From an uncultured Pelagibacteraceae bacterium (GTDB lineage Bacteria; Pseudomonadota; Alphaproteobacteria; Pelagibacterales; Pelagibacteraceae), in contig CACEDU010000004.1 in assembly GCA_902558435.1 (NCBI GenBank), forward strand, positions 60,228 to 124,227: a DNA stretch of 64,000 nucleotides. Reading direction: 5' to 3'. The notes below the pieces were generated by a model, which was not told the DNA's origin, made no database searches, and was given only the letters and a program-made list of their open reading frames with translations. The position numbers and the translations under genes are program-made. Positions 6,153-20,180 of the stretch are shown piece after piece; the stretch's first letter is position 1; every line of letters begins with the position of its first letter.

Positions 6153-7122
6153 AAGTTTTGAACTAGATAAATTAAATTTAATTAAATCAAATCTCCACCT
6201 TATTTATGGTAATAATGAAGGGATCAAGGAAGATATAATTAATAAGTATTATCTTAATAACTTTGATGGTGATGTGTTGAAGTATGAAGAACAAGAAATT
6301 TTAAGTAATAAAGATGAATTTATTTCTAGTTTGTTAACAAAATCTCTTTTTGATAATAAAAAATTGATTATTATATCAAGAGCAACGGACAAGTTATTCG
6401 TTTTATTTAGTGAATTTTTAGAGAGAGAAATTTCAGATATTCAAATAATAATTAAATCTTCAACTCTTGAAAAAAAATCTAAACTGAGAAGTATTTTTGA
6501 AAAAGAAAAACAAATGATTTGCACTCCAGTTTATGAGGATGATACAAGATCATTGAATTTTTATATTCAAAATTTTTTAAGAGAAAAAAAACTTAATTTA
6601 TCCCAAGAAATTAAAAACTTGTTAATCGAAAGATCAAAGGGCGACAGAATTAATTTAAAAAATGAACTATCAAAATTGAAAAATCTTTCAATAAGTAAGA
6701 AAACATTAGATGTTGAAGACGTAATAAAACTTTCGAATATTGCAGAAAATTATACTGTTTTTGAATTATCTGACAATTATTTAGCTAAAAATTCAAAAAA
6801 AGTATCTAACATTCTTAACGAAAATAATTATTCCTCTGAGGACTGCATTTTAATCATTAGAACAATATTAAATAAATCAAAAAGACTTTTGAAGATAAGA
6901 ACGGAGATTGACAATAACAAAAATATAGATCAAGTTTTATCAAACTTTAAACCACCGATATTTTGGAAAGAAAAGGATATTATTAAAAAACAAGTAAAAT
7001 TATGGTCATCTAAAGAGATAAAAGAGTTAATATTTAAAATTAATAGTTTAGAAATCTCTGTCAAAAAAAATTCAATAAATTCAATACTTTTTGTGTCGGA
7101 TTTTGTAAGTAGTTATCAGTAA
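6142..7122 (+). CDS. holA: DNA polymerase III delta subunit
   Basis: A 326-aa protein with the HolA layout: an N-terminal RecA-like domain (LHLIYGNNEGIKEDIINKYY) without a functional Walker A, then the lid (RSKGDRINLKNELSKL), then a helical collar domain. The delta subunit is the wrench of the clamp loader that opens the beta clamp. Family identity is supported by the GDR-NLKNEL-KL motif typical of HolA and by its position after lptE. The 3' end overlaps the convergent parB by 7 bases, so both operons end in shared sequence with no obvious hairpin. Confidence 0.93.
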   Translation: MIIKSFELDKLNLIKSNLHLIYGNNEGIKEDIINKYYLNNFDGDVLKYEEQEILSNKDEFISSLLTKSLFDNKKLIIISRATDKLFVLFSEFLEREISDIQIIIKSSTLEKKSKLRSIFEKEKQMICTPVYEDDTRSLNFYIQNFLREKKLNLSQEIKNLLIERSKGDRINLKNELSKLKNLSISKKTLDVEDVIKLSNIAENYTVFELSDNYLAKNSKKVSNILNENNYSSEDCILIIRTILNKSKRLLKIRTEIDNNKNIDQVLSNFKPPIFWKEKDIIKKQVKLWSSKEIKELIFKINSLEISVKKNSINSILFVSDFVSSYQ

Positions 7123-7967
7123 TTTTGCTTTATAATTTCAACTAATCTATCAAGCTGGTCAGCACCTTTATATTCTAAACTGATAGTTCCAGTATTATTT
7201 CTTTTGTTATTAACAAAAACTCTCATTCCTAGTCTACTTGTTAATTCCTCCTCAAGGTTTAAGATATTTGGATCTTTTTTTTTTATAGTATTTTTAGAGT
7301 TAGACTTTAAAATTTTAACTAAATTTTCAGATTGTCTTACTGATAATTTTTTTGAAATAATTTTTTTTGCTAAAAGTATTGCATTGTCTAGGCCTACTAA
7401 AATTTTTGCATGGCCTTGTGATAATTTTTCCTCTATAATTAGTTCAATTATCTCTTGGGGTAATGTTAAAAGCCTTAAACAATTAGAAATGTGTGCTCTG
7501 CTTTTGCCTATAAATTTAGCCACCTTATCTTGATCATAACTAAATTCATCAATTAATCTTTTATAGCCCTCTGCTTCTTCAATTGGATTTAAATCTTTTC
7601 TTTGAACATTTTCAACAATGGCAAATTCTAAAGACTTCAGATTATCTGCATTGATTACAATAACGGGAACTTCATGCAGTCCTGCATATTGAGCTGCCTG
7701 CCATCTTCTTTCTCCAGCTACAATCTCAAATTTATCTTCTTCATTAGTAGCCGGTCTAACAATGATAGGTTGGATAATACCTCGCTCTCTTATCGAGTTA
7801 GTCAATTCCTCTAAAGCTATTTCATCAAATTTTTTTCTAGGTTGATACTTATTTCTCACTAAAGAACTTATTGATATATTTTTTTTATCTTCAATTTTTT
7901 CGCTGTCACCTATCAGAGAGGAAAGTCCTCTTCCAAGACCCTTTTTTGATTTAAACGGATTTATCAT
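7116..7967 (-). CDS. parB: Chromosome partitioning protein ParB
   Basis: 283 aa with the standard ParB layout: N-terminal GLGRGLSSLIGD; a ParB/Srx CTP-binding domain with YQPRKKFD and the conserved GERRWQAAQYAGL; a central helix-turn-helix (DQDKVAKFIGKSRAHISNCLRLL); and a C-terminal dimerisation region. ParB loads at parS and spreads as a CTP-dependent clamp to organise the origin region. Its start overlaps the parA stop by 4 bases. A perfect parS site lies in rsmG two genes upstream. Confidence is very high. Confidence 0.98.
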   Translation of the reverse strand: MINPFKSKKGLGRGLSSLIGDSEKIEDKKNISISSLVRNKYQPRKKFDEIALEELTNSIRERGIIQPIIVRPATNEEDKFEIVAGERRWQAAQYAGLHEVPVIVINADNLKSLEFAIVENVQRKDLNPIEEAEGYKRLIDEFSYDQDKVAKFIGKSRAHISNCLRLLTLPQEIIELIIEEKLSQGHAKILVGLDNAILLAKKIISKKLSVRQSENLVKILKSNSKNTIKKKDPNILNLEEELTSRLGMRVFVNNKRNNTGTISLEYKGADQLDRLVEIIKQNY

Positions 7968-8764
7968 GCTGCGCTCTCCACTGATTTATCTTGGTTTAAG
8001 AATTCTTCTGTAAAATTAAAATATGCTTTACTCCCCGGACATGTCTTATCATAAATAAGTACTGGGACACCATGAGAAGGTGCTTCTGATAATCTGACAT
8101 TTCTTGGCACAGCAGTACTATAAACTTTGTCCTTAAAATAGCTTCTTGCCTCTATTTCTACCTCACTTGATAATTTATTTCTCTTATCATACATTGTTAG
8201 AAGTATTCCTCTTATGTCTAATGATGGGTTTAGATTTGACTTGATCCTCTCAATTGTTTTCATGAGTTGCGTAAGTCCCTCTAACGCAAAAAATTCAGTC
8301 TGAAGTGGTACCACAAGAGCATCAGAGGCTACCAATGCCATAATTGTAAGTAGACTTAAAGATGGTGGACAGTCAACAATGATATAATCGTAGAGAGATC
8401 CAGAAGTGTTTAAAATTGCGGTTAATTCATCTTTTAATTTAAAAGCTCTCCGATTATCACCTGCTGTTTCTATCTCTAGTCCAGACAAATCAACATTAGA
8501 TGATATTAAATCTAGATTTTTAAATTTTGTAGACTGAATTACCTCTGAAATTTTTTTGTTTCCATTCAAAACATTGTAAATTGTTTGTTCAGAACTTATT
8601 GTGTTAGATAATCCCAACCCTGTTGTAGCATTACCTTGGGGATCAAGATCAATTACAAGAATTTTTTTTTCTTTCATTGTTAATCCAGCAGCAAGATTAA
8701 TGACGGTAGTGGTTTTGCCCACTCCACCTTTTTGATTTATGACCGAAATAATTTTTCTATTCAT
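7964..8764 (-). CDS. parA: Chromosome partitioning ATPase ParA
   Basis: 266 aa with a deviant Walker A box (QKGGVGKTTTVINLA) at residues 10-24, then IVDCPPSLSLLT as Walker B. It is a chromosomal ParA/Soj ATPase that moves ParB-parS complexes after replication starts. It overlaps rsmG upstream by 8 bases and parB downstream by 4 bases, so the rsmG-parA-parB genes are likely co-translated. The order mnmG-rsmG-parA-parB is the conserved origin-proximal cluster in many bacteria. Confidence 0.98.
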   Translation of the reverse strand: MNRKIISVINQKGGVGKTTTVINLAAGLTMKEKKILVIDLDPQGNATTGLGLSNTISSEQTIYNVLNGNKKISEVIQSTKFKNLDLISSNVDLSGLEIETAGDNRRAFKLKDELTAILNTSGSLYDYIIVDCPPSLSLLTIMALVASDALVVPLQTEFFALEGLTQLMKTIERIKSNLNPSLDIRGILLTMYDKRNKLSSEVEIEARSYFKDKVYSTAVPRNVRLSEAPSHGVPVLIYDKTCPGSKAYFNFTEEFLNQDKSVESAA

Positions 8765-9401
8765 ACTTTTTATTTAGATTTGAAATTTTTATGACTAATG
8801 ACTCTTCTCTAGTCTGACTTTTCATTTTCTCCATGTCAAATTCCCATTCTGAAGAGGCATTTTCTAAAATTTTTTTTCCACTTTTTCCTAAATACATAAT
8901 TATGTATTTAAATTTTTTAAAATTTTTTGTTGCTATATCAAAGACCACTGGTAAAGGTTTAAACGCTCGACAAATTATTACATCAGTGACTAAATTTTTT
9001 TCTTCAAATATATTTTTTTGATAAATTTTTGCTTCCAATTTAAATTTTTTTACCATTTCTTTTAAGAAATTGCTCTTATGATAACTTTTTTCATAAAAAA
9101 TCAGCTTAAAACCTTGCTTTTTAGATTTCATCAAAATACCTAAAACTATACTAGGAAGCCCTGCACCAGATCCGAGGTCTGTGCAAATGTTTATATCATT
9201 TTTATTAATAAAATCAATGGTTTGTGCACTATCATAAATATGTCTTGTATTTATTGACTTTTCAGTACTTGAACTTATTAAATTTACTTTCTTGTTTCTG
9301 TTCAAAATTGACTGTGAATAGTCATCCAACTCCATAAGTGTTTCACGTGAAACATTTGGGAGATAAATTTTATCTTTTTTTATTATTTTCGAATCAATCA
9401 A
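8757..9401 (-). CDS. rsmG: 16S rRNA (guanine-N7)-methyltransferase RsmG
   Basis: 214 aa. The SAM-binding motif [13 protein letters not shown] is at about residues 75-87, preceded by [10 protein letters not shown], both typical of RsmG (GidB), which methylates G527 of 16S rRNA. The first codons ([11 protein letters not shown]) are encoded across a perfect parS palindrome, so this coding segment is shared with a centromere site. It overlaps mnmG by 4 bases and parA by 8 bases. Confidence 0.96.
9339..9354. promoter_or_regulatory. parS: parS centromere site (perfect consensus)
   Basis: TGTTTCACGTGAAACA is a perfect 16-bp palindrome identical to the widely conserved bacterial parS consensus bound by ParB. 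It lies within the 5' coding part of rsmG, about 1.4 kb from parB and about 7 kb from the candidate oriC. Origin-proximal parS sites near parAB are the usual arrangement. Confidence 0.97.
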
Positions 9402-11269
9402 GCTATATGCTTAATAGACTTTCTTTTAACATGAGACAACAAAATATACACAGCAGCTGGAGTAATTCCATCAATCCTAAGAGCTTGGCCAAGTGTTTTT
9501 GGCCTTATTTCCTTAAATTTTGACTTTACTTCATTTGATAGTCCTGAAAACTGGTCATAATCAAGATTATCTGGAATTTTAAGATTTTCATCTCTTTTAA
9601 ATGCTAAAATATCTGCATTTTGTTTCTTTAAATATCCTTTATAATGAGCTTTTATCTCAATTTGCTCATCAATTTCACGTGAAAAATATTCAATTTCTGG
9701 CCAAATTTCCCTTATTTTACTCATATCTACTGATTTTTGACTTAATATTTCAATTGCATTTCTTTTTACACCATCTTTAGCAATATTTATTCCAAATTTT
9801 GATACCTTTGATGGAGAAATAAGCGAATTTTCCATATTATTGAGACTTTTTTCAAGTTTAGATGCTTTATCTCTATAAATCGTTTTTCTCTCATCTAGTA
9901 TAAGTCCAGTATCAATCCCTTTTTGAGTTAGTCTAAGATCGGCATTGTCAGATCTTAAAGATAACCTATATTCAGCTCTTGAAGTGAACATTCTATAAGG
10001 CTCTGCAACTCCTTTGGTCACTAAATCATCAATCATAACTCCAATATAAGCCTCAGATCTATCAAGTATAAACGGTTCCATGCCTTTGATAGACAATGCA
10101 GCATTAATTCCAGCTATCAATCCTTGCGCTGCAGCTTCCTCATAACCTGTTGTTCCGTTTATTTGTCCTGCAAGGAAAAGATTTTTAATTTTTTTTGTCT
10201 CCAAAGTTAGAAAGAGCTCCCTTGGATCTACAAAATCATATTCTATGGCATATCCAGGTCTTAAAATTTTAACATTTTCTAAACCATTGATATTGTTACA
10301 TAATTCTTGCTGTACTTTAGCAGGAAGTGAAGTTGAAATTCCGTTAGGGTAAATTGTATTGTCATTAAGACCCTCAGGCTCCAAAAATATTTGATGTTTT
10401 TGCTTATCAGCAAACTTTACAATCTTATCTTCAATAGAGGGACAATATCTTGGACCTACTCCTTTAATACTTCCAGAGTACATAGCACTACTTTTTATAT
10501 TTCTAGAAATAATTTTATGCACTTCTTTATTTGTGTAGGTTATCCTACATGAAATTTGTTTATTAATATTTTTTTTTGTGAGGAAAGAAAAAAAATAGGG
10601 ATCTTCATCTGCATGCTGCACCTCGAGTTTTTCAAAATTAATTGTCGTTGCATCAAGTCTTGGAGGTGTTCCAGTTTTTAATCTTCCAATTTTGAAATTA
10701 TATTTTTCTAACTGCTCACTTAATCCTGTTGAAGGTTTTTCATTAAATCTTCCTGCTGGTGTTTTTTCATCTCCAATATGAATTAAACCATTTAAAAAAG
10801 TGCCAGTTGTCAGAATTACTTTTGATGATAATATTTTTTTACCTGCTTTTGTAATAAAACCAATTATATTGTTTTTTTCAAATATAAACTCAATTACAGT
10901 ATCAGAAAAAATGCTTAAATTACAGTAGTTTAACAGTTTTTCTTGCATATATTTTTTATACAATGATCTATCACTTTGCGTACGTGGTCCACGCACGGCA
11001 GGACCTCTACTTCTATTTAGTAATCGAAATTGAATTCCTGATTTATCAGCAATTTCTCCCATTACGCCATCAAGTGCATCTATCTCTCTAACAAGATGCC
11101 CTTTACCTAGTCCTCCTATAGCTGGATTGCATGACATTTCACCAATAGTTTCAAATTTATGAGTAAATAAGGCCGTATTTACACCTAATCTAGCTGATGC
11201 TGCAGCAGCTTCACAGCCAGCATGCCCACCTCCGATTACAACTACATCGAATGATATCTCATTTTTCAT
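9398..11269 (-). CDS. mnmG: tRNA U34 carboxymethylaminomethyl-modifying enzyme, MnmG subunit
   Basis: 623 aa, normal length. The N-terminal FAD-binding motif is [13 protein letters not shown], followed by [13 protein letters not shown] and [11 protein letters not shown], all hallmarks of MnmG (GidA). With MnmE it modifies the wobble uridine of certain tRNAs, using FAD, NADH and methylene-THF. The C-terminal helical domain ([19 protein letters not shown]) is intact. It sits at the head of the mnmG-rsmG-parA-parB run. A second parS-like palindrome lies within the gene at 9671-9686. Confidence 0.98.
9671..9686. promoter_or_regulatory. Degenerate parS-like palindrome
   Basis: AATTTCACGTGAAAAA keeps the central 12-bp core TTTCACGTGAAA of parS but differs from the 16-bp consensus at three outer positions. 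It lies in mnmG, 332 bases from the perfect site. It may be a low-affinity ParB site or a chance match; the rarity of CACGTG in such AT-rich sequence favours function. Confidence 0.55.
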
Positions 11270-11345
11270 AGCTGTAATTTATTATCGATCTTAAAATTTA
11301 CAAGAAAACACTTAAAAATGCCTAAAAATCAAGTAAAATAGGTAT

Positions 11346-12677
11346 TTATTTACCTATACAGAAATCACTAAAAATGGAACCTAATATTTCTTCAACATCT
11401 ACTTTTCCAACAATCATACCTAGGTGTCTAGTTGCCAATCTTAAATCCTCTGCAGCTTTATCAAAATCTTCTTGAGAATTCTTCTCTTCAAAATGTTTTA
11501 AATTTAAAACACAAGCTTCCAGACTTCGTCTGTGTCTTTCTCTAGTAATCAAAGTTTCATCTGAACTAACAAATTTATTTCTTAATTTATCTTTAATTCT
11601 ATTTAATAATTCATCTAGGTTCGTTTCATTTTTAATTGATAAAAAGATTGGATTAAATTTTGAGATTTGTTGATTGATATTTTTATAACCAATATCAATC
11701 TTATTAATCACAATAATTGATTTTTCACTTACCAAATCGTTCAAAAAACCAGTAAAATCAATACTTTTTGGTTCTATTACTATTATATTTAGATCTGCAT
11801 CATCTGCACGCTTAAGAGCTAATTTGATTCCTTTTTTTTCTATCTCATCTTGAGAATCTCTGATCCCTGCAGTATCAGAAATAACAACTGGGTAACCATC
11901 TAAATTTAAATGAGCTTCAATAACATCTCTAGTTGTACCTGCAATTTCTGAAACAATTGCAACTTCTCTTTTAGAAAGATAATTTAACAAAGATGATTTG
12001 CCTGCATTTGCTGGACCAAGAATTGCAATCTTAAATCCTTCTCTAATTCTTTCACCAACTTTTTGATCATCTAAAATTTTTTCAATTTCTTTTCGAATTT
12101 TTTCAGAGTCACTTCTAATATCTTTAATTACATCTTCTGGAAGATCCTCATCCGGAAAATCAATTTTAGCTTCTACCTTTGATAAAATTTTTAATAGTTT
12201 TTCTCTAAGAGAATTAAACTTGTTTGAACTTTCTCCACTCATTATTTTAAGGGCTTGTCGTCTTTGGATCTCGGTTTCGGCAGAAATTAAATCAGAAACG
12301 CTCTCGGCTTTTAAAAGATTTATTTTTTGATTTTGAAAAGCTATTTTTGTAAACTCCCCAGGTTCAGCCAAACGACAATCTTCAAATTTTGATAATTGGT
12401 CTAATATTGATCTAACTACAGCTATGCTACCATGCACATGTATTTCAGCCATATCCTCGCCTGTGTAGCTCTCTGGGCCTGGAAACCACAGCAATAGACC
12501 TTCATCTATCAGCTCAGAATTATCGATTTTACTGAATTTTTTTAAGGTTGCGACACGGGGAGGTGGTATTTTGCCATTTGTAAGACTCAATATAATCTTT
12601 TTTGTAAGTATTCCAGATACACGAACAACTGCTATTCCAGAAACCCCAGGACCAGATGATAAAGCATAAATTGTCAT
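11346..12677 (-). CDS. mnmE: tRNA modification GTPase MnmE
   Basis: 443 aa with an N-terminal folate-binding domain (PGVSGIAVVRVSG, GEFTKIAFQNQKINL), a central G domain (P-loop GPANAGKSS near residue 220, G3 DTAGIR, G4 NKID), and the C-terminal CIGK tail whose Cys is characteristic of MnmE. It partners MnmG for the wobble-uridine modification. The gap to mnmG is 76 bases. The start MTIYALSSGPG is canonical. Confidence 0.98.
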   Translation of the reverse strand: MTIYALSSGPGVSGIAVVRVSGILTKKIILSLTNGKIPPPRVATLKKFSKIDNSELIDEGLLLWFPGPESYTGEDMAEIHVHGSIAVVRSILDQLSKFEDCRLAEPGEFTKIAFQNQKINLLKAESVSDLISAETEIQRRQALKIMSGESSNKFNSLREKLLKILSKVEAKIDFPDEDLPEDVIKDIRSDSEKIRKEIEKILDDQKVGERIREGFKIAILGPANAGKSSLLNYLSKREVAIVSEIAGTTRDVIEAHLNLDGYPVVISDTAGIRDSQDEIEKKGIKLALKRADDADLNIIVIEPKSIDFTGFLNDLVSEKSIIVINKIDIGYKNINQQISKFNPIFLSIKNETNLDELLNRIKDKLRNKFVSSDETLITRERHRRSLEACVLNLKHFEEKNSQEDFDKAAEDLRLATRHLGMIVGKVDVEEILGSIFSDFCIGK

Positions 12678-12713
12678 AAAAAGAGTATAACAATTATTTT
12701 TAAAAAAATATTC

Positions 12714-13985
12714 TTAAGATGGTTTATTCATCGAATTAAAGAACTCGGCATTATTTTTAGTTGTCTTTAATTTTGAATTGATAAAATCAATTGCATCCAT
12801 AGATCCCATAGGAGCAATAATCCTTCTTAGAACATTCATTTTTTGTAGATCATTTTTATCAAATATTAATTCTTCGCGTCTAGTTCCTGATTTAGTTATA
12901 TCTATTGCCGGGAATATTCTTTTTTCAGATATTTTTCTATCTAATATTGTTTCACTATTTCCAGTTCCTTTAAATTCCTCAAAAATTACTTCATCCATTC
13001 TGCTTCCCGTATCAATTAGAGCTGTAGCTATAATAGTTAAAGAACCTCCCTCTTCAATATTTCTTGCTGCACCAAAAAATCTTTTTGGTCTTTGAAGAGC
13101 ATTTGCATCTACACCACCTGTTAAAACTTTACCTGAGCTTGGAACAACAGCATTGTAAGCTCTTCCTAATCTTGTGATCGAGTCTAAAAGTATAACGACA
13201 TCTTTCTTATGCTCAGTTAATCTTTTAGCTTTTTCAATTACCATTTCAGCAACAGCAACATGGCGCTGAGCTGGCTCGTCAAACGTTGAACTAATAACTT
13301 CACCCTTCACTGTTCTTTGCATATCCGTAACTTCCTCAGGTCTTTCGTCAATTAATAAAACCATGAGATAACATTCAGGATGATTGGCTGTTATAGAGTT
13401 AGCTATGCTTTGTAAAATCATTGTTTTTCCTGCTTTAGGAGGAGATATAATCAATGATCTTTGACCTTTTCCAATTGGACTTACTAAATCTATTAACCTA
13501 GGAGTCAGATCAGGTTTTTTTTCAATTTTATTTGTCTCTACTTCCATACCTAATTGTTTATTTGGATACAAAGGCGTTAAATTATCAAAAGCAATTTTAT
13601 GTTTAAATTTATCTGGCTCTTCAAAATTTATTTTACTAACTTGAAGAAGTGCAAAATATCTTTCTCCATCTTTTGGAGATCTAATTGGACCTTCAACTGT
13701 ATCTCCTGTTCTTAATCCAAATCTTCTTATTTGGCTTGGGCTTACATATATGTCATCTGCACCTGGTAGATAGTTAGACTCCATCGCTCTGAGGAAGCCA
13801 AAACCGTCTTGGAGTAATTGTAAGACTCCTCCACCTGTTATCTCTTCACCTTTTTCTGCAAGCTTTTTTAAAATTGCAAAATAAATTTCTTGTCTCCGAA
13901 GTGTACTAGCATTTTCTATACCCAGTTTTTCAGCTTCAGTGATTAACTTTTCAGAGCTTTTTTCTTTTAATTCTTGTATGTTCAT
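12714..13985 (-). CDS. rho: Transcription termination factor Rho
   Basis: 423 aa. An N-terminal Rho helix domain (LITEAEKLG) leads into an RNA-binding cold-shock-like domain ([22 protein letters not shown]). The RecA-like ATPase domain has P-loop [10 protein letters not shown], then [14 protein letters not shown] and [11 protein letters not shown]. This hexameric helicase ends transcripts lacking intrinsic terminators, which fits the few hairpin terminators visible here. rho next to mnmE and the hem genes is part of the alphaproteobacterial origin region. Confidence 0.98.
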
Positions 13986-14044
13986 GTGTGGAGGTTTTTG
14001 TTAAAGATAAGTTAAATATATATACTAGTATAAAAATTTCAACC

Positions 14045-14482
14045 CTAGATAGGTTTAAAAACCACAATAAAAACTGTTAAAATCAATAAAATTGTGGGAA
14101 TTTCATTGATTATTCTAAAAAATTTAGCTGATTTAGTATTTTCTTTTGTCTTTAGTAATCGAATGCATTTTCCGAGATACTCATGATAAATCGTTAAAAT
14201 CACGACAAAAATAATTTTCAACTGCAGCCACAAATAAGCGAAACTTTCTATACCGTTTATCCAAATTAATATAATTCCAAAAAGCCAGGATAAAATCATG
14301 GCTGGCCTCATAATATAATTATAAAGTTTTCTCTCCATTATCTCAAAAATTTCAGTAGCTTGATCTTTTTCAAAATTCTCTACATGATATACGAATATTC
14401 TTGGCAAATATAAGAGACCGGCCATCCAAGAAATTACTGCTATTAAATGCAAAGATTTAAATAAAAGATAACCACTCATCAA
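14045..14482 (-). CDS. hemJ: Protoporphyrinogen oxidase HemJ
   Basis: A 145-aa membrane protein with four predicted helices. The N-terminal LHLIAVISWMAGLLYLPRIFVYH carries the His and W-x-x-x-L-Y-x-P-R pattern of HemJ (UPF0093), and YHEYLGKC follows in the third segment. HemJ oxidises protoporphyrinogen IX in the step before ferrochelatase. It starts directly after the hemH stop, completing a hemE-hemH-hemJ operon for the end of haem synthesis. Confidence 0.93.
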   Translation of the reverse strand: MMSGYLLFKSLHLIAVISWMAGLLYLPRIFVYHVENFEKDQATEIFEIMERKLYNYIMRPAMILSWLFGIILIWINGIESFAYLWLQLKIIFVVILTIYHEYLGKCIRLLKTKENTKSAKFFRIINEIPTILLILTVFIVVFKPI

Positions 14483-15475
14483 TTATATATTTTTCATAAT
14501 TAGATTTTTTAATAAGAAAATATGATCCTCACTATCATTTAAACATGGTACCATTTCAAAATTCTCACCACCAGATTTAATAAAACTCTCTTTACCCTGA
14601 ATAGATATTTCCTCTAAAGTTTCTACACAATCAGATGAAAAGCCTGGACAAATAACTAAAATATTTTTCTTGCCTTCTTTAGGTAACGTTTCAAAAGTTT
14701 TATCTGTGTAAGGTTGTAACCATTCTTGAGGGCCAAATCTTGATTGAAATGTAGTCTTAATTTCAATATCTGAATATTTTTCAGAAATCAGTCTGGTAGT
14801 TTTATGACAATAGCAATGGTAGGGATCACCTTTATCAAAATATTTTTTAGGTATTCCGTGATAAGATGCAATTATTAAATCTGGTTTCCAATTAATTTCA
14901 CTAATTTTTTTTTCAATACTATTTTTGATTGCTTCTATATAAAGAGGTTCTGACTCATAGTGTGGGATAATTTTTAGGTTTGGTTGCCACCGCATTTTCA
15001 TCAAAGTTCTATAAACTTCATCACAAACTGTTGCTGTTGTTGCTGCTGCATATTGCGGGTAAAGGGGAAGAACAATTAAACTTTCACAACCTTTTTTCTG
15101 AAGTTCGTTAATTTTGCTTTTAATACTTGGATTTCCATACCTCATAGCAAAATCAACAATTAAATCTTCATTGCCAATTTGTTTAGACAATTTTTGTGCT
15201 TGGCTCTCAGTATAATATCTTAGAGGAGACATATCTTTGTCTCTCATCCATATCTCTTTATAGGCTTTTGCTGTTTTAGAAGGTCTGAAAGTAAGAATAA
15301 ATAAATTAAGTATTATCTGCCAAATTATGGGATTCACTTCTATCACTCGTCTGTCTGATAAAAATTCTTTTAAATATTTACGAATATCTAGCCAGTTAGT
15401 TGAGTCAGGTGTACCAAGATTAATAATTAGAATACCTGTCTTACCATAATTGATTTTCGGATGGTCTGGAGTCAT
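14483..15475 (-). CDS. hemH: Ferrochelatase
   Basis: 330 aa. ILIINLGTPDST at the N terminus, the catalytic His in ASYHGIPKKYF, and PGFSSDCVETLEEI near the C terminus are ferrochelatase signatures. It inserts Fe2+ into protoporphyrin IX at the inner membrane surface. GDPYHCYCHKT shows two closely spaced cysteines, and another is in SSDC; an iron-sulfur cluster as in some bacterial ferrochelatases is possible but cannot be settled from sequence alone. The start overlaps the hemE stop by 4 bases. Confidence 0.97.
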   Translation of the reverse strand: MTPDHPKINYGKTGILIINLGTPDSTNWLDIRKYLKEFLSDRRVIEVNPIIWQIILNLFILTFRPSKTAKAYKEIWMRDKDMSPLRYYTESQAQKLSKQIGNEDLIVDFAMRYGNPSIKSKINELQKKGCESLIVLPLYPQYAAATTATVCDEVYRTLMKMRWQPNLKIIPHYESEPLYIEAIKNSIEKKISEINWKPDLIIASYHGIPKKYFDKGDPYHCYCHKTTRLISEKYSDIEIKTTFQSRFGPQEWLQPYTDKTFETLPKEGKKNILVICPGFSSDCVETLEEISIQGKESFIKSGGENFEMVPCLNDSEDHIFLLKNLIMKNI

Positions 15476-16473
15476 TTAAAATTTCTTACAATCTTAATTA
15501 ATTCTTCAACCATTTCAATTTTAGTCTCAGGGAGAATTCCGTGGCCTAAATTAAAAATGTATGGGTGATCTTTAAAAATATTTAGATATTTTTCAACTTC
15601 TGTTTTAAGAGTTTTTTGATCAGTTAACAGTATTTTTGGGTCAAGCCCGCCTTGTATTGGTATTTTAATTTCTTTAACAATTTTTTTTGGATTAACATCG
15701 TAATCTATATTTACAGCATCAGGTTTAACAATCTCACAAAAATTTTTATAATCTTTAATACCTCTAGGAAAACAAATAACAGGAATATTTAATTTCTTCA
15801 CATACTCTACAATATTTAATGTAGGTATATAAATATACTCTGGAATTTTTTCTTCTAGTAAACCAGCCCAACTATCAAAAATTTGAATTATTTTAGCTCC
15901 TGCTTCAACTTGATTTTTAATATGAAGTTTTAAAAATTTCTCAATTATTTCTAGTAATCTATTTACTAAAAAATCATCTTTAAAAAAATCATTTGATAAA
16001 CCTTTTTTAGGAGAGGATTTATTAATCATATAAACTAAGATTGTCCAAGGCGCTCCAACAAAACCAATCATGTCCCTGTTGTTCATCAGAGGATTTTTTG
16101 AAGTTTTTGAAATTGCTTTGTAAACTTTATAAACTTTTTCAGTGAAATTTATTTCGTCAATATTTTTTATTTTTTCTAAATTTATATCACCTAATTTAGG
16201 TCCAAAATTTTTTTCAAATTCTACTTTTTGACCAAGACCATATGGTAACATTAAAATATCTGAAAATATTACAGCTCCATCAAATCCAAATCTTTTAATA
16301 GGTTGTAAAGTAATTTCAGATGCTAAATCACTATTAAGACAAAGTTTTATAAAATCTTGGTTTAGTCTCCTAATTTCTCTAAATTCTGGAAGATACCTTC
16401 CTGCCTGTCTCATCAACCATATAGGATTAGATCTAGTATCATTTTCTTTAATACATTTAGTTATGGGACTCAT
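15472..16473 (-). CDS. hemE: Uroporphyrinogen decarboxylase
   Basis: 333 aa. The N-terminal motif PIWLMRQAGRYLPEFRE and IQIFDSWAGLL in the middle are diagnostic. It decarboxylates uroporphyrinogen III to coproporphyrinogen III. It is the last leftward gene before the candidate origin; in Caulobacter and relatives the replication origin lies immediately upstream of hemE. Its promoter must lie in the 284-bp gap, so it may be linked to origin activity. Confidence 0.97.
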   Translation of the reverse strand: MSPITKCIKENDTRSNPIWLMRQAGRYLPEFREIRRLNQDFIKLCLNSDLASEITLQPIKRFGFDGAVIFSDILMLPYGLGQKVEFEKNFGPKLGDINLEKIKNIDEINFTEKVYKVYKAISKTSKNPLMNNRDMIGFVGAPWTILVYMINKSSPKKGLSNDFFKDDFLVNRLLEIIEKFLKLHIKNQVEAGAKIIQIFDSWAGLLEEKIPEYIYIPTLNIVEYVKKLNIPVICFPRGIKDYKNFCEIVKPDAVNIDYDVNPKKIVKEIKIPIQGGLDPKILLTDQKTLKTEVEKYLNIFKDHPYIFNLGHGILPETKIEMVEELIKIVRNFK

Positions 16474-16757
16474 ATAAATAGATAATATATTATTTACTTT
16501 ATTAGTATTATGTATTGTGAATAACGTAAATTAGTCAATTTCCACACTTAATTAACCTATTGTTAACAATTTTAATCACTAATTAATAAGATATTTAAAG
16601 GATAAATTAAAGATTTTCACATTTCTATATATTTTGAATAACTATAATCACATTTTATAATTTGTTTAATATTAAAGAAAAAAACAAGGTTCTATTCATT
16701 TAAAGAATAAATCTGCATTTTTCTTATTTTTACTAATAGTTTATAAACATCTTATAC
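16474..16757. other. oriC: Candidate chromosomal replication origin (oriC)
   Basis: This is the longest non-coding gap in the window. It separates a block of genes all running left (7.1-16.5 kb) from a block all running right (16.8-20.2 kb). The flanks, hemE and a DUF299-maf-aroE-coaE-dnaQ block, are the same as at the characterised Caulobacter origin. It holds one perfect DnaA box on the minus strand (TTATTCACA), a one-mismatch site (TTATTCAAA at 16633-16641), several two-mismatch sites, a TTGTTAACAA palindrome, and long A/T tracts suited to unwinding. Function is inferred; skew analysis and mapping would settle it. Confidence 0.78.
16516..16524 (-). promoter_or_regulatory. DnaA box
   Basis: The complement of TGTGAATAA reads TTATTCACA, which fits the TTATNCACA consensus exactly. 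It lies in the gap between hemE and the DUF299 gene, near the hemE side. Confidence 0.7.
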
Positions 16758-17585
16758 ATGAGAAACTTATATCAAATTTACTTAATATCAGATTCTACTG
16801 GAGAAACATTGGATAGGATATTTCTAGCGTTAAAAGCTCAATTTCCTAATTTTGAATATGAAACTAATCATTTTTCTTTTACTCGTACTGAAAGTCAAAT
16901 CATAAGCATTTTGAAACAAGCTAAAAAAGATAGGAATTCAATAATTTTATATACAATAGTAAATAGTAAACTTGCAAAATATCTTACAGAAAAAGCCTAT
17001 GAGAGAGAGATACCTTGTTTTGGCGTTCTTGGAGATTTAATATTAAATTTTTCAAAAGTTTTAAATCAAAAAGCTTCTCATCAGCCAAGTGGTCAGCACA
17101 TTTTAAATGAAGAATACTATGATAGAATTGAGGCTATTCAGTTTACCATGAATCATGATGATGGACATCAAACTGATGATATAGAAAAATCTGATATCAT
17201 TCTTTTAGGTGTAAGCAGGACAAGTAAAACTCCAACAGCAATCTATTTAGCAAATAGAGGTTTTAAAACCTCAAACATCCCTTTAGTTAACAAAAATTCA
17301 ATTCCATCAAAAGTTACTGCAAAAAACTTTTTGCCATGTGTTGTTGGTTTAGTAACTGAAGCTGAGAGACTATATGATTTAAGAAAAAATAGATTGAATT
17401 CTCTAAAAGAGGATCAAAATAGCGAGTATGTAAATATTGATAAAATCAGAGATGAATTAAATAGTTCAAAAAAAATATTCAAAGAAAATAATTGGCCCGT
17501 AATAGATGTAACTAGAAAATCAGTTGAAGAAACTGCAGCATCCGTAATTAAAATTTATGAAATAAAAAGTAAAAAAAATGCCTGA
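16758..17585 (+). CDS. Pyruvate phosphate dikinase/PEP synthase regulatory protein (DUF299)
   Basis: 275 aa, full length for this bifunctional kinase/pyrophosphorylase family. It contains LISDSTGETLDRI at the N terminus and the P-loop GVSRTSKTPTAIYLANRG in the middle. The family switches PPDK or PEP synthase on and off by phosphorylating a threonine near the catalytic histidine. Which enzyme is the partner cannot be told here. It is the first rightward gene from the candidate origin and overlaps maf by 8 bases. Confidence 0.93.
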   Translation: MRNLYQIYLISDSTGETLDRIFLALKAQFPNFEYETNHFSFTRTESQIISILKQAKKDRNSIILYTIVNSKLAKYLTEKAYEREIPCFGVLGDLILNFSKVLNQKASHQPSGQHILNEEYYDRIEAIQFTMNHDDGHQTDDIEKSDIILLGVSRTSKTPTAIYLANRGFKTSNIPLVNKNSIPSKVTAKNFLPCVVGLVTEAERLYDLRKNRLNSLKEDQNSEYVNIDKIRDELNSSKKIFKENNWPVIDVTRKSVEETAASVIKIYEIKSKKNA

Positions 17586-18162
17586 CATCATTTTAGCTTC
17601 AAAAAGTAAAGTTAGAAAGGAAATATTGGATAATCATAATATCAATTGTAATGTTGAAGTTTCAAATGTTGATGAAGATCCGATAAAAGAAAGTCTGCTA
17701 AAAGAGGGTGCTTCACCAGAAATCATTTCTAAAAATCTTGCGGAATTGAAAGCAAATAAAGTAAGTCAAAAAATTAATAATGTTTTGGTTTTAGGAGCAG
17801 ATAGCGTCATCGATCTGACTGGGGAGTTAATATCAAAACCAGAAAGTAGGGAAGAGGCATTAAATATTTTAAAGAAACTTAATGGAAAAAAACATTCTTT
17901 AATCAGTTCGGTATGTATATCTAAAAATGGTTCCATGGTTTGGAACTATACTGATAAAGCTTACTTGACCATGAAGGATTTTTCTGAAAACGAATTAATC
18001 ACTTATCTAAATAAAATAAGCGACGAAGCTTTATATGCTTATAATGTTTATCAGATTGAAGGGGAAGGAAGAGCTTTATTCTCAAATATTGATGGTGATG
18101 ATGATACGATAATGGGGTTACCAATTAAAAAAATTAAGGAGTATTTGGAACTTCAAAAATGA
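17578..18162 (+). CDS. maf: Maf-family nucleotide pyrophosphatase
   Basis: 194 aa with ILASKSKVRKEIL at the N terminus, LGADSVIDLTGELISKP in the middle, and YQIEGEGRALF near the end, all Maf signatures. Maf proteins hydrolyse non-canonical or modified nucleoside triphosphates and are tied to septum inhibition in some bacteria. It overlaps both neighbours (DUF299 gene and aroE) by a few bases, in an origin-flanking operon. Confidence 0.95.
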   Translation: MPDIILASKSKVRKEILDNHNINCNVEVSNVDEDPIKESLLKEGASPEIISKNLAELKANKVSQKINNVLVLGADSVIDLTGELISKPESREEALNILKKLNGKKHSLISSVCISKNGSMVWNYTDKAYLTMKDFSENELITYLNKISDEALYAYNVYQIEGEGRALFSNIDGDDDTIMGLPIKKIKEYLELQK

Positions 18163-18950
18163 AAAAATTTTTTGTTATAGGAAACCCAATTGAACACTCT
18201 CTATCTCCAAAGTTGCACAATTATTGGATAAAATTAAATAATTTAACAGCAGTTTACGATAAAAAAAAATTAAATATCTCTGAACTAGAAAACTTTATTA
18301 AAGAACTTGAAGAAAAGAAAATTGATGGAATTAATGTTACAGTACCTTTTAAAAATTCTGTAATTCCTTTTTTAGGCAAATTATCTGTTGAGGCCCAAAG
18401 AACTCAATCAGTAAATACTATATACTTAAGAGATGGAACAGTAATAGGACATAATACAGATATAGAAGGGTTTGAGTTGGCTATTAAACATACAAATTAT
18501 GATGTTGTTGGAAAAAAAGTTTTAATATTAGGTGCGGGAGGTGTTTCGCCTTCAATTATAGTAGCTTTAAACAATATGAGTGCCAAAAAAATATTTATAA
18601 GCAATAGAACACAAAGCAAAGCAGAAAATTTAAAAAAAACTTTTAATGAAATTGAAATTGTTAAATGGGGAACAATACCTGATTTTGATATGATTATAAA
18701 TGCGACTAGTTTAGGTTTGAAAAATGATGAAAATATTAGTTTAGATTATTCGAAAATTAGTCCTGAAAAATTTTTTTATGATGTAATTTATAATCCATCC
18801 GAAACTAATTTCTTAAAATCTGCTAAAAAAAATGGAAATAAAATAGAAAATGGAAAAAAAATGTTTATTTATCAGGCCCAAGCATCTTTTAAAATATGGA
18901 ATAACCTAGAGCCTCAAGTGGACAATAAAGTTATGGAGCTTTTAAATTGA
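18159..18950 (+). CDS. aroE: Shikimate dehydrogenase (NADP+)
   Basis: 263 aa. The substrate site GNPIEHSLSPKLHN, the catalytic Lys in NVTVPFKN, HNTDIEGF, and a Rossmann loop LGAGGVSPSI with SNRTQSKAE for NADP+ binding are all present. It converts 3-dehydroshikimate to shikimate in aromatic amino-acid synthesis. It is translationally coupled to maf upstream, and its TGA overlaps the TTG start of coaE. Confidence 0.97.
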   Translation: MKKFFVIGNPIEHSLSPKLHNYWIKLNNLTAVYDKKKLNISELENFIKELEEKKIDGINVTVPFKNSVIPFLGKLSVEAQRTQSVNTIYLRDGTVIGHNTDIEGFELAIKHTNYDVVGKKVLILGAGGVSPSIIVALNNMSAKKIFISNRTQSKAENLKKTFNEIEIVKWGTIPDFDMIINATSLGLKNDENISLDYSKISPEKFFYDVIYNPSETNFLKSAKKNGNKIENGKKMFIYQAQASFKIWNNLEPQVDNKVMELLN

Positions 18951-19534
18951 TTAAGATTGGTGTTTTAGGTGATATAGGTTCAGGCAAAAGCTTTGTTGCA
19001 AAACATTTTGGTTATCCAGTTTTTAATGCTGATAAAGAAGTTAGTGATATCTACAAAAAAGATAAATCTTGTTATAAAAAAATTAAAAAGAAATTTCCAA
19101 AATTTATTAAGTCAAAAACATTAAAAAAAGATGAGCTTGGGAGTGTCATAAAAGCAAATAAAAAAAATCTGAAAAAATTATCAGATATTGTTCATCCTAT
19201 AGTAAGGAAGAGAATGTATTTATTCTTTAAAAAAAACAAAAGAAAAAAAATGATTGTGTTAGACATACCATTATTAGTTGAAAATAAATTATATGATGAA
19301 AATTTTTATTTAATTTTTGTTCAATCAAATAAAAAAGAGATTAATAAAAGGCTTAAAAAAAGGCCTTTCTATAATAAAAGTATTATTAATAACTTACGAA
19401 AATCTCAAAGCTCTCTGGCTTATAAAAAAAAAATATCTAATTTTGTTATCAAGAATAATTTTAAACTTCTAAACTTAAAAAAAAAAATTAAAATAATTAA
19501 AAAAAAGATTCTAGATGAAAGAAATAGTTCTTGA
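18947..19534 (+). CDS. coaE: Dephospho-CoA kinase
   Basis: 195 aa with P-loop GDIGSGKSFVAKHF and the family motif VLDIPLLVENKLYD. It catalyses the last step of coenzyme A synthesis. The start is TTG at 18947, within the aroE stop region, giving MIKIGVLGD, the expected N terminus. The C-terminal third is extremely lysine/asparagine rich (LKKKIKIIKKKI), reflecting A-rich base composition more than function. Confidence 0.93.
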   Translation: MIKIGVLGDIGSGKSFVAKHFGYPVFNADKEVSDIYKKDKSCYKKIKKKFPKFIKSKTLKKDELGSVIKANKKNLKKLSDIVHPIVRKRMYLFFKKNKRKKMIVLDIPLLVENKLYDENFYLIFVQSNKKEINKRLKKRPFYNKSIINNLRKSQSSLAYKKKISNFVIKNNFKLLNLKKKIKIIKKKILDERNSS

Positions 19535-20180
19535 TACAGAAACAACTGGATTGTCAGTAAGAGATGGCCATCGAATTGTTGAAATAGGATGCGTGGAATT
19601 AGATAATTTAATACCTACAAAAAATATATTTCATGTTTATTTAAATCCTGAGCGAAAAGTATCAGAAAAAGCTTTCGAGGTTCATGGATATACTGATGAA
19701 TTTTTATCAACTAAGCAAAAATTTGCTGAAATTGCTGATATTTTTATTGAATTTATCAAAGATAAAAAAATAATTATACATAATGCCGAGTTTGATATTG
19801 GACATTTAAATAATGAATTATCTCTAATTGGTAAGCCAAAAATAAATAATTCAAATGTTATTGATACATTGGAGCTAGCTAGAAATAAATTTCCAGGGTC
19901 AGGTATTAGTTTAGATGCATTATGTAAAAGATTTAGAATTGACAATTCAAGAAGAGAAAAACATACAGCTTTAATTGATTGTGATCTACTTTCTAAAGTT
20001 TACATAAATTTAATTGATCAAAAAGAACCTAAATTTAATCTAACAGAAGAAAATCCTGAAAAGATGACTTTGAATAGTGATAATAAAGAATATTTTAAAA
20101 AGATTATATTACCAACTGAAAAAGAATTATCTGAACATAATAAATTCTTAAAAAAAGATTTAAAAAAAAATTTTTTTTAA
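19515..20180 (+). CDS. dnaQ: DNA polymerase III epsilon subunit (3'-5' exonuclease)
   Basis: 221 aa. The DEDDh exonuclease motifs are visible: ExoI VLDTETTGL, ExoII HNAEFDIGHLNNEL, and ExoIII HTALIDCDLL. The epsilon subunit proofreads for the replicative polymerase. Its start overlaps coaE by 20 bases. The gene ends in a run of A then T (A9T8) shared with the convergent secB end. aroE-coaE-dnaQ-secB is a conserved origin-side order in alphaproteobacteria. Confidence 0.95.
   Translation: MKEIVLDTETTGLSVRDGHRIVEIGCVELDNLIPTKNIFHVYLNPERKVSEKAFEVHGYTDEFLSTKQKFAEIADIFIEFIKDKKIIIHNAEFDIGHLNNELSLIGKPKINNSNVIDTLELARNKFPGSGISLDALCKRFRIDNSRREKHTALIDCDLLSKVYINLIDQKEPKFNLTEENPEKMTLNSDNKEYFKKIILPTEKELSEHNKFLKKDLKKNFF

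Follow-up and report, generated by a model that had tools for sequence, protein, structure and literature searches.

The hemE/DUF299 intergenic region as the probable chromosomal replication origin of SAR11 bacteria

The window analyzed here, a 64-kb stretch of DNA corresponding to C4:60228-124227 of a 1.32 Mb genome in 28 contigs (G000) whose nearest named relatives are single-cell genomes of Pelagibacteraceae (SAR11), has as its longest intergenic region the gap at 16474-16757, on either side of which hemE (minus strand) and a gene of the DUF299/COG1806 family (plus strand) form a divergent pair. The principal features of the neighborhood are the following:

7116..8764, minus strand: parB and parA, the origin-segregation genes (Pfam ParB_N, HTH_ParB, AAA_31)
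9339..9354, unstranded: parS, TGTTTCACGTGAAACA, inside rsmG and 7.1 kb from the gap; the genome has no other perfect copy
15472..16473, minus strand: hemE, left flank of the candidate origin (TIGR01464 above cutoff)
16474..16757, unstranded: candidate oriC, the whole hemE/DUF299 intergenic region (284 bp, 17% GC)
16758..17585, plus strand: DUF299/COG1806 (PPDK/PEP synthase regulator family), right flank (NF003742 above cutoff)

To the left of the gap lie, in order, hemE, hemH, a HemJ-like gene, rho, mnmE, mnmG, rsmG, parA, and parB, and to its right DUF299 is followed by maf, aroE, coaE, and a gene for a dnaQ-like exonuclease; the rightward genes were confirmed by Pfam, save DUF299 itself, which was identified by NCBIfam. 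The initial annotation had described a gap that splits about 9 kb of leftward from 3.4 kb of rightward genes, shares its flanks with the mapped Caulobacter origin, and has no dnaA near it. All of this holds: the blocks measure 9.4 kb (parB to hemE, 7116-16473) and 3.4 kb (DUF299-maf-aroE-coaE-dnaQ, 16758-20180), the flanks agree with those published for Caulobacter (PMC1914354), and dnaA is found 66 kb further left along this contig. The arrangement is kept in 50/50 same-genus genomes, this set comprising those in which both hemE and DUF299 were readable, with the two genes divergent, a gap of 261-285 bp at 13-21% GC, and flanking proteins down to 54-60% identity.

An exact TTATNCACA occurs once in the gap (n=1, at 16516-16524 on the minus strand), and two more boxes lie within one mismatch, in line with the earlier description of one perfect DnaA box and several weaker ones. 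These three boxes at <=1 mismatch, against 0.65 expected from base shuffles (p ~0.02), are a modest and only mildly unusual excess for a single genome, and relatives were hence needed. Across the 50 gaps, 218 boxes at <=1 mismatch were found against 30 expected from base shuffles, a cluster above chance as is characteristic of the hemE/COG1806 type of oriC, and they are piled at shared columns. When all 50 gaps were anchored, ungapped, on the perfect box (box 1), a fixed order emerged: four TAN triplets come first, separated by a 4-nt spacer from box 1, which is followed by forward boxes at exactly +22, +33, and +44. The elements of the gap, as they stand in the present genome, are:

16474..16499, unstranded: AT-rich stretch from the hemE start to the triplet run, the candidate duplex-unwinding side
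16500..16511, plus strand: DnaA-trio-like run TAT TAG TAT TAT, reading into box 1 on that strand
16516..16524, minus strand: DnaA box 1, TTATTCACA, the sole perfect box (TTATNNACA exact in 40/50 genomes, <=1 mismatch in 48/50)
16526..16534, minus strand: second, degenerate site, tandem to box 1 at a distance of roughly one helical turn (conserved G-N3-ATTA)
16538..16546, plus strand: array box 2, ATTTCCACA, +22 from box 1 (mean 1.34 mismatches to TTATNMACA)
16549..16557, plus strand: array box 3, TAATTAACC, +33 from box 1 (mean 1.44 mismatches)
16560..16568, plus strand: array box 4, TTGTTAACA, +44 from box 1 (mean 1.06 mismatches)
16644..16652, plus strand: distal weak box, ATAATCACA (box at <=1 mismatch in the aligned column in 16/50 gaps)
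16663..16671, minus strand: distal weak box, TATTAAACA (box at <=1 mismatch in the aligned column in 27/50 gaps)
16741..16749, plus strand: distal weak box, TTATAAACA, beside the DUF299 start codon (<=1 mismatch in 28/50 gaps)

The consensus of box 1 over the 50 genomes is TGT(G/T)AATAA, followed by NG and a conserved ATTA; the latter positions belong to the second site (G in 98% at +10, ATTA in 92-98% at +14 to +17), which is a class-wide element found as CGGGGATNA in other alphaproteobacteria. The forward array follows the consensus TTATN(A/C)ACA, and forward offsets off this lattice average ~4-7 mismatches to it over the 50 gaps, while box 3 of the present genome shows 2 mismatches even to this relaxed form. 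Most of the conserved boxes have A in place of the C of strong boxes, and such conservation of weak boxes would fit the earlier suggestion that initiation may rely on degenerate sites. In 22 unseen genomes, the positions +22, +33, and +44 again stand out (mean mismatches 1.09, 0.86, and 0.59), these genomes having been fetched by a pattern over the triplets, box 1, and the following ATTA, so that the independent test covers just the three array boxes. The pattern scan matched 201 of 299 genus genomes, a weak count as a reversed control pattern also often matched at one mismatch, and 29/30 of the scan sites that were fetched fall inside the hemE/DUF299 gap at the same offset. The comparison of the gap across relatives that had been proposed as a check thus finds the boxes retained at fixed spacing across the genus. 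At the scale of the chromosome, the gap is the densest DnaA-box cluster by both scores used in G012, a complete relative assembled as a single 1.34 Mb contig (read except for 15 kb); in G183, a complete genome from another genus of the family, it ranks first by one score and is tied by the other.

The triplets to the left of box 1 display a clear periodicity in the 50 genomes, with T in 92-100% at -16, -13, -10, and -7 from box 1 and A in 62-88% at -15, -12, -9, and -6. They recall the DnaA basal unwinding system (BUS), in which a DnaA box and a spacer are followed by 3'-GAT-5' triplets whose middle A is conserved and which lie on the strand of DnaA filament extension (PMC8287927). A BUS calls for a DnaA box with no more than two mismatches and, on the correct strand, three or more NAN triplets within 16 bp; the SAR11 gap offers four TAN triplets at a 4-nt spacer from TTATTCACA. 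As NAN triplets are easily had in AT-rich DNA, the case for putative trios rests on their periodic conservation. Only one of the four triplets in the present genome is TAG; at the equivalent position, a sister family and many alphaproteobacterial hemE/DUF299 gaps have the run in a clearer TAGTAGTAG form. Coding was considered as the source of the three-base period and rejected, for the gap length varies regardless of threes and the plus-strand run contains an in-frame TAG. Further left, the joint lowest-GC 40-mers of the gap begin within 16474..16499, and most columns left of box 1 are devoid of C in the 50 genomes.

We found that this element outlives its neighbors. In nine genomes of the sister family (f2; L093-L101), hemE adjoins maf across the gap and DUF299 is missing, no match to it being found in the f2 genomes listed; the gap, of 263-280 bp, nevertheless has an AT-rich start, a triplet run (TAGTAGTAGTAGTTGTACC in L101), and then tandem boxes. 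In G183, rho rather than hemE is the neighbor of the gap, and TTATTAG-GTCA-TGTTTATAA-TGGGGTTAA is kept beside DUF299; the best hemE match of this genome lies at C1:718121-719032 (718 kb), with 32% identity, and may be a replacement gene. In a sample of the class, 99/144 genomes have a DUF299 match, and among 20 upstream regions of class DUF299 genes that were fetched, 18 have hemE alongside. About 10 of these 18 gaps carry, on the hemE side, AT-rich DNA, a TAG/TTG run, CCTGTGgAtaa, and CGGGGATnA (e.g. L159, L168, L169, and L170), and the element is not clear in some of the class gaps; a test of the pattern against shuffles agrees, the pattern having been written after those gaps were seen. These findings also suggest that alphaproteobacterial origins ancestrally possessed the unwinding element on their hemE side.

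The cumulative-skew check recommended by the initial annotation was run on G012 and G183, the present genome being fragmented, and in G012 the strand-asymmetry switch falls at the gap. Its fourfold T-A skew, corrected for gene strand, displays one strong switch at 1,261,447, inside hemE and 0.5 kb from the gap (1,261,949-1,262,209), with a statistic of 8473 against a permutation maximum of 2767 (three times) and bootstrap 95% intervals of 1.256-1.285 Mb and, in a second run, 1.241-1.285 Mb; the opposite switch falls near 0.73 Mb, at a position that is only loosely constrained. The raw GC-skew minimum of this genome (1,231,116) is broad and 31 kb from the gap, and was dropped as a locator in favor of the corrected T-A skew; its fourfold GC skew alone was uninformative on origin location. 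T-A skew was far sharper than GC skew in the AT-rich G012. This was not so in G183, where fourfold T-A skew did not locate the gap and raw GC skew was used instead: the minimum lies at 159.9 kb, a gene-orientation switch at 165.9 kb, and the gap at 141 kb (within 19 kb of the skew minimum), with the GC-skew maximum at 771.5 kb.

The parS sites point to the same region. A parS with <=1 mismatch is present near the gap in 5/5 same-genus relatives tested, and G183 has a perfect one 19.5 kb from its gap. As a separate observation, the sole perfect parS of the present genome encodes an NVSRET motif near the start of the rsmG protein; a second, weaker parS-like site, AATTTCACGTGAAAAA, is seen at window positions 9671-9686, 332 bp away from it, and the relative G004 has a similar second site at the same spacing.

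Based on the strand asymmetry in a relative, the conserved architecture, the persistence independent of flanks, and an intact DnaA (with the conserved RDHTTVIH motif in its DNA-binding domain), we propose that the gap is in all probability the oriC of this SAR11 bacterium (Pelagibacteraceae), orthologous to the alphaproteobacterial hemE/COG1806 origin (probability about 0.93). It might alternatively be thought to be only a divergent promoter or regulatory region of hemE and DUF299, perhaps DnaA-regulated, with the origin lying elsewhere: the two genes are divergent, three promoter-like matches occur in the gap region, and DnaA is also a transcription regulator in many bacteria. However, the promoter-like matches do not rise above shuffles (3 vs 4.7), both the skew switch and parS point to the gap, and the gap is the top DnaA-box cluster of G012. 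Moreover, comparative evidence indicates that the element is more than a shared promoter, because it is kept where DUF299 is lost, as in f2, and where rho has taken the place of hemE, as in G183. We accordingly regard a purely regulatory role as very unlikely.

Caulobacter-type control of the origin by CtrA is comparably improbable. The motif TTAA-N7-TTAA, which such a reading would take as CtrA sites, occurs in 23/50 gaps against 10.7 expected, and twice in the present one; yet this excess arises from adjacent TTAAC boxes standing 11 bp apart, and many relatives keep the boxes without the motif. Further, no protein passes the CtrA model among the Trans_reg_C matches examined in G000, G012, and the sister-family genome G061, these being PhoB, OmpR-like, ChvI-like, and receiver-less proteins. 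Thus, we recovered in these searches neither the sites nor the protein of the CtrA system, which is of the Caulobacter type and not common to all hemE/COG1806 origins. The receiver-less proteins deserve mention in their own right: one of 190-200 aa, with a winged-helix Trans_reg_C domain, no recognizable receiver domain, and no NCBIfam match, is encoded ~17 kb from the origin (G000:C4:59332-59541, ~0.7 kb outside the left end of the window; G012:C1:1244375), and a similar one of ~215 aa occurs in G061.

Among other elements looked for, the IHF consensus, in a consensus search, has no match in the present gap and occurs in 4/50 gaps, and no structured RNA was detected in the gap by Rfam. GcrA and an HdaA homologue are both present, and hence not all known controls have been lost. 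Control by GcrA/CcrM via GANTC was rejected, this site being absent from the present gap and from 48/50 gaps despite GcrA; GANTC is seen in just 2/50 gaps. An absence of Hda from SAR11 was likewise considered and dropped: there is a single PF00308 match per genome, but positive controls from the class also gave one, and a search with the HdaA model recovers a second homologue, of full length, in SAR11. Least credible of all is an origin adjoining dnaA as in many bacteria, for though dnaA is only 63-66 kb off, and to the same side, in G000 and G012 (and 72 kb in G183), in G012 it lies at 1.199 Mb, 63 kb from the gap and outside both bootstrap intervals, and the dnaA-rpsT intergenic region of G000 has no DnaA box at <=1 mismatch.

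For the hemE/DUF299 gap as origin, we envisage the following mechanism, in which occupancy and order of assembly are read from the layout of the sites. DnaA would first bind box 1 and then spread cooperatively rightward over the three weak boxes, set one helical turn (11 bp) apart in fixed phase. From box 1 it would also form a leftward filament along the TAN triplets of the plus strand, which would act as degenerate DnaA-trios; we infer this filament because the triplets on the plus strand read into box 1 and DnaA is intact. The AT-rich stretch next to hemE would presumably then open for helicase loading, and two forks would leave, one via hemE-rho-parAB and the other via DUF299-maf. More tentatively, and with somewhat less than even confidence, we suggest that the SAR11 oriC is a minimal machine of a near-consensus anchor, deliberately weak boxes (A for C) phased at 11 bp, and G-poor DnaA-trios, operating without CtrA or IHF, and that it is a module inherited across Alphaproteobacteria independently of its neighbors. 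The kind of origin, namely the alphaproteobacterial hemE/COG1806 origin, is already known; what is new, as judged from sequence comparison, is the location of the SAR11 origin by comparative evidence, together with its fixed architecture, apparent degenerate trios, and flank-independent persistence. A search of the literature, as distinct from database entries, found no base-level description of a SAR11 origin.

SAR11 bacteria count among the ocean's most abundant cells, and estimates of their in-situ growth from read depth depend on knowing the position of the origin. A published SAR11 whole-genome alignment starts at dnaA (PMC12421898). Our analysis yields a location for the origin, a base-level model of its candidate sites, and a prediction, that of weak phased boxes with degenerate trios, which could be tested by a single assay with purified protein, thereby making SAR11 initiation directly testable.

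Among known systems, the Caulobacter crescentus Cori was mapped between hemE and COG1806, where the Rickettsia origin was also predicted (PMC1914354). The SAR11 gap shares with Cori the flanking genes, a dnaA that is not adjacent, and a few moderate with many weak boxes (the G-boxes and W-boxes of Cori; PMC4285127, PMC4468827); it differs in being shorter, far more AT-rich, and without CtrA or the IHF consensus, and in having a TTATT(A/C)ACA array at 11-bp steps where Cori has TGATCCACA/TCCCCA. In the Rickettsiales, the origin is placed between hemE and COG1806 in Rickettsia and between hemE and COG1253 in Wolbachia, Ehrlichia, and Anaplasma, and there too an AT-rich gap stays beside hemE while flanks turn over (PMC1914354); however, those origins are defined by DnaA, CtrA, and IHF sites, of which SAR11 shows the DnaA part only. 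With the BUS, a system whose DnaA-trios have been predicted in 85% of origins across bacteria (PMC8287927), the SAR11 gap has in common the order of the elements, their strand, the period of the triplets with their middle A, and the spacing from the box, whereas its triplets are mostly TAT/TAG with TTG variants rather than repeated TAG, it has no GC-rich spacer, and its second box is very degenerate. Finally, the low-affinity arrays of the E. coli oriC similarly comprise weak boxes in one orientation that adjoin a strong anchor box, itself flanking the unwinding region (PMC4285127); in contrast, the SAR11 array runs opposite in direction to box 1, with a regular 11-bp spacing, and its box 1 is directly adjoined by the triplet run.
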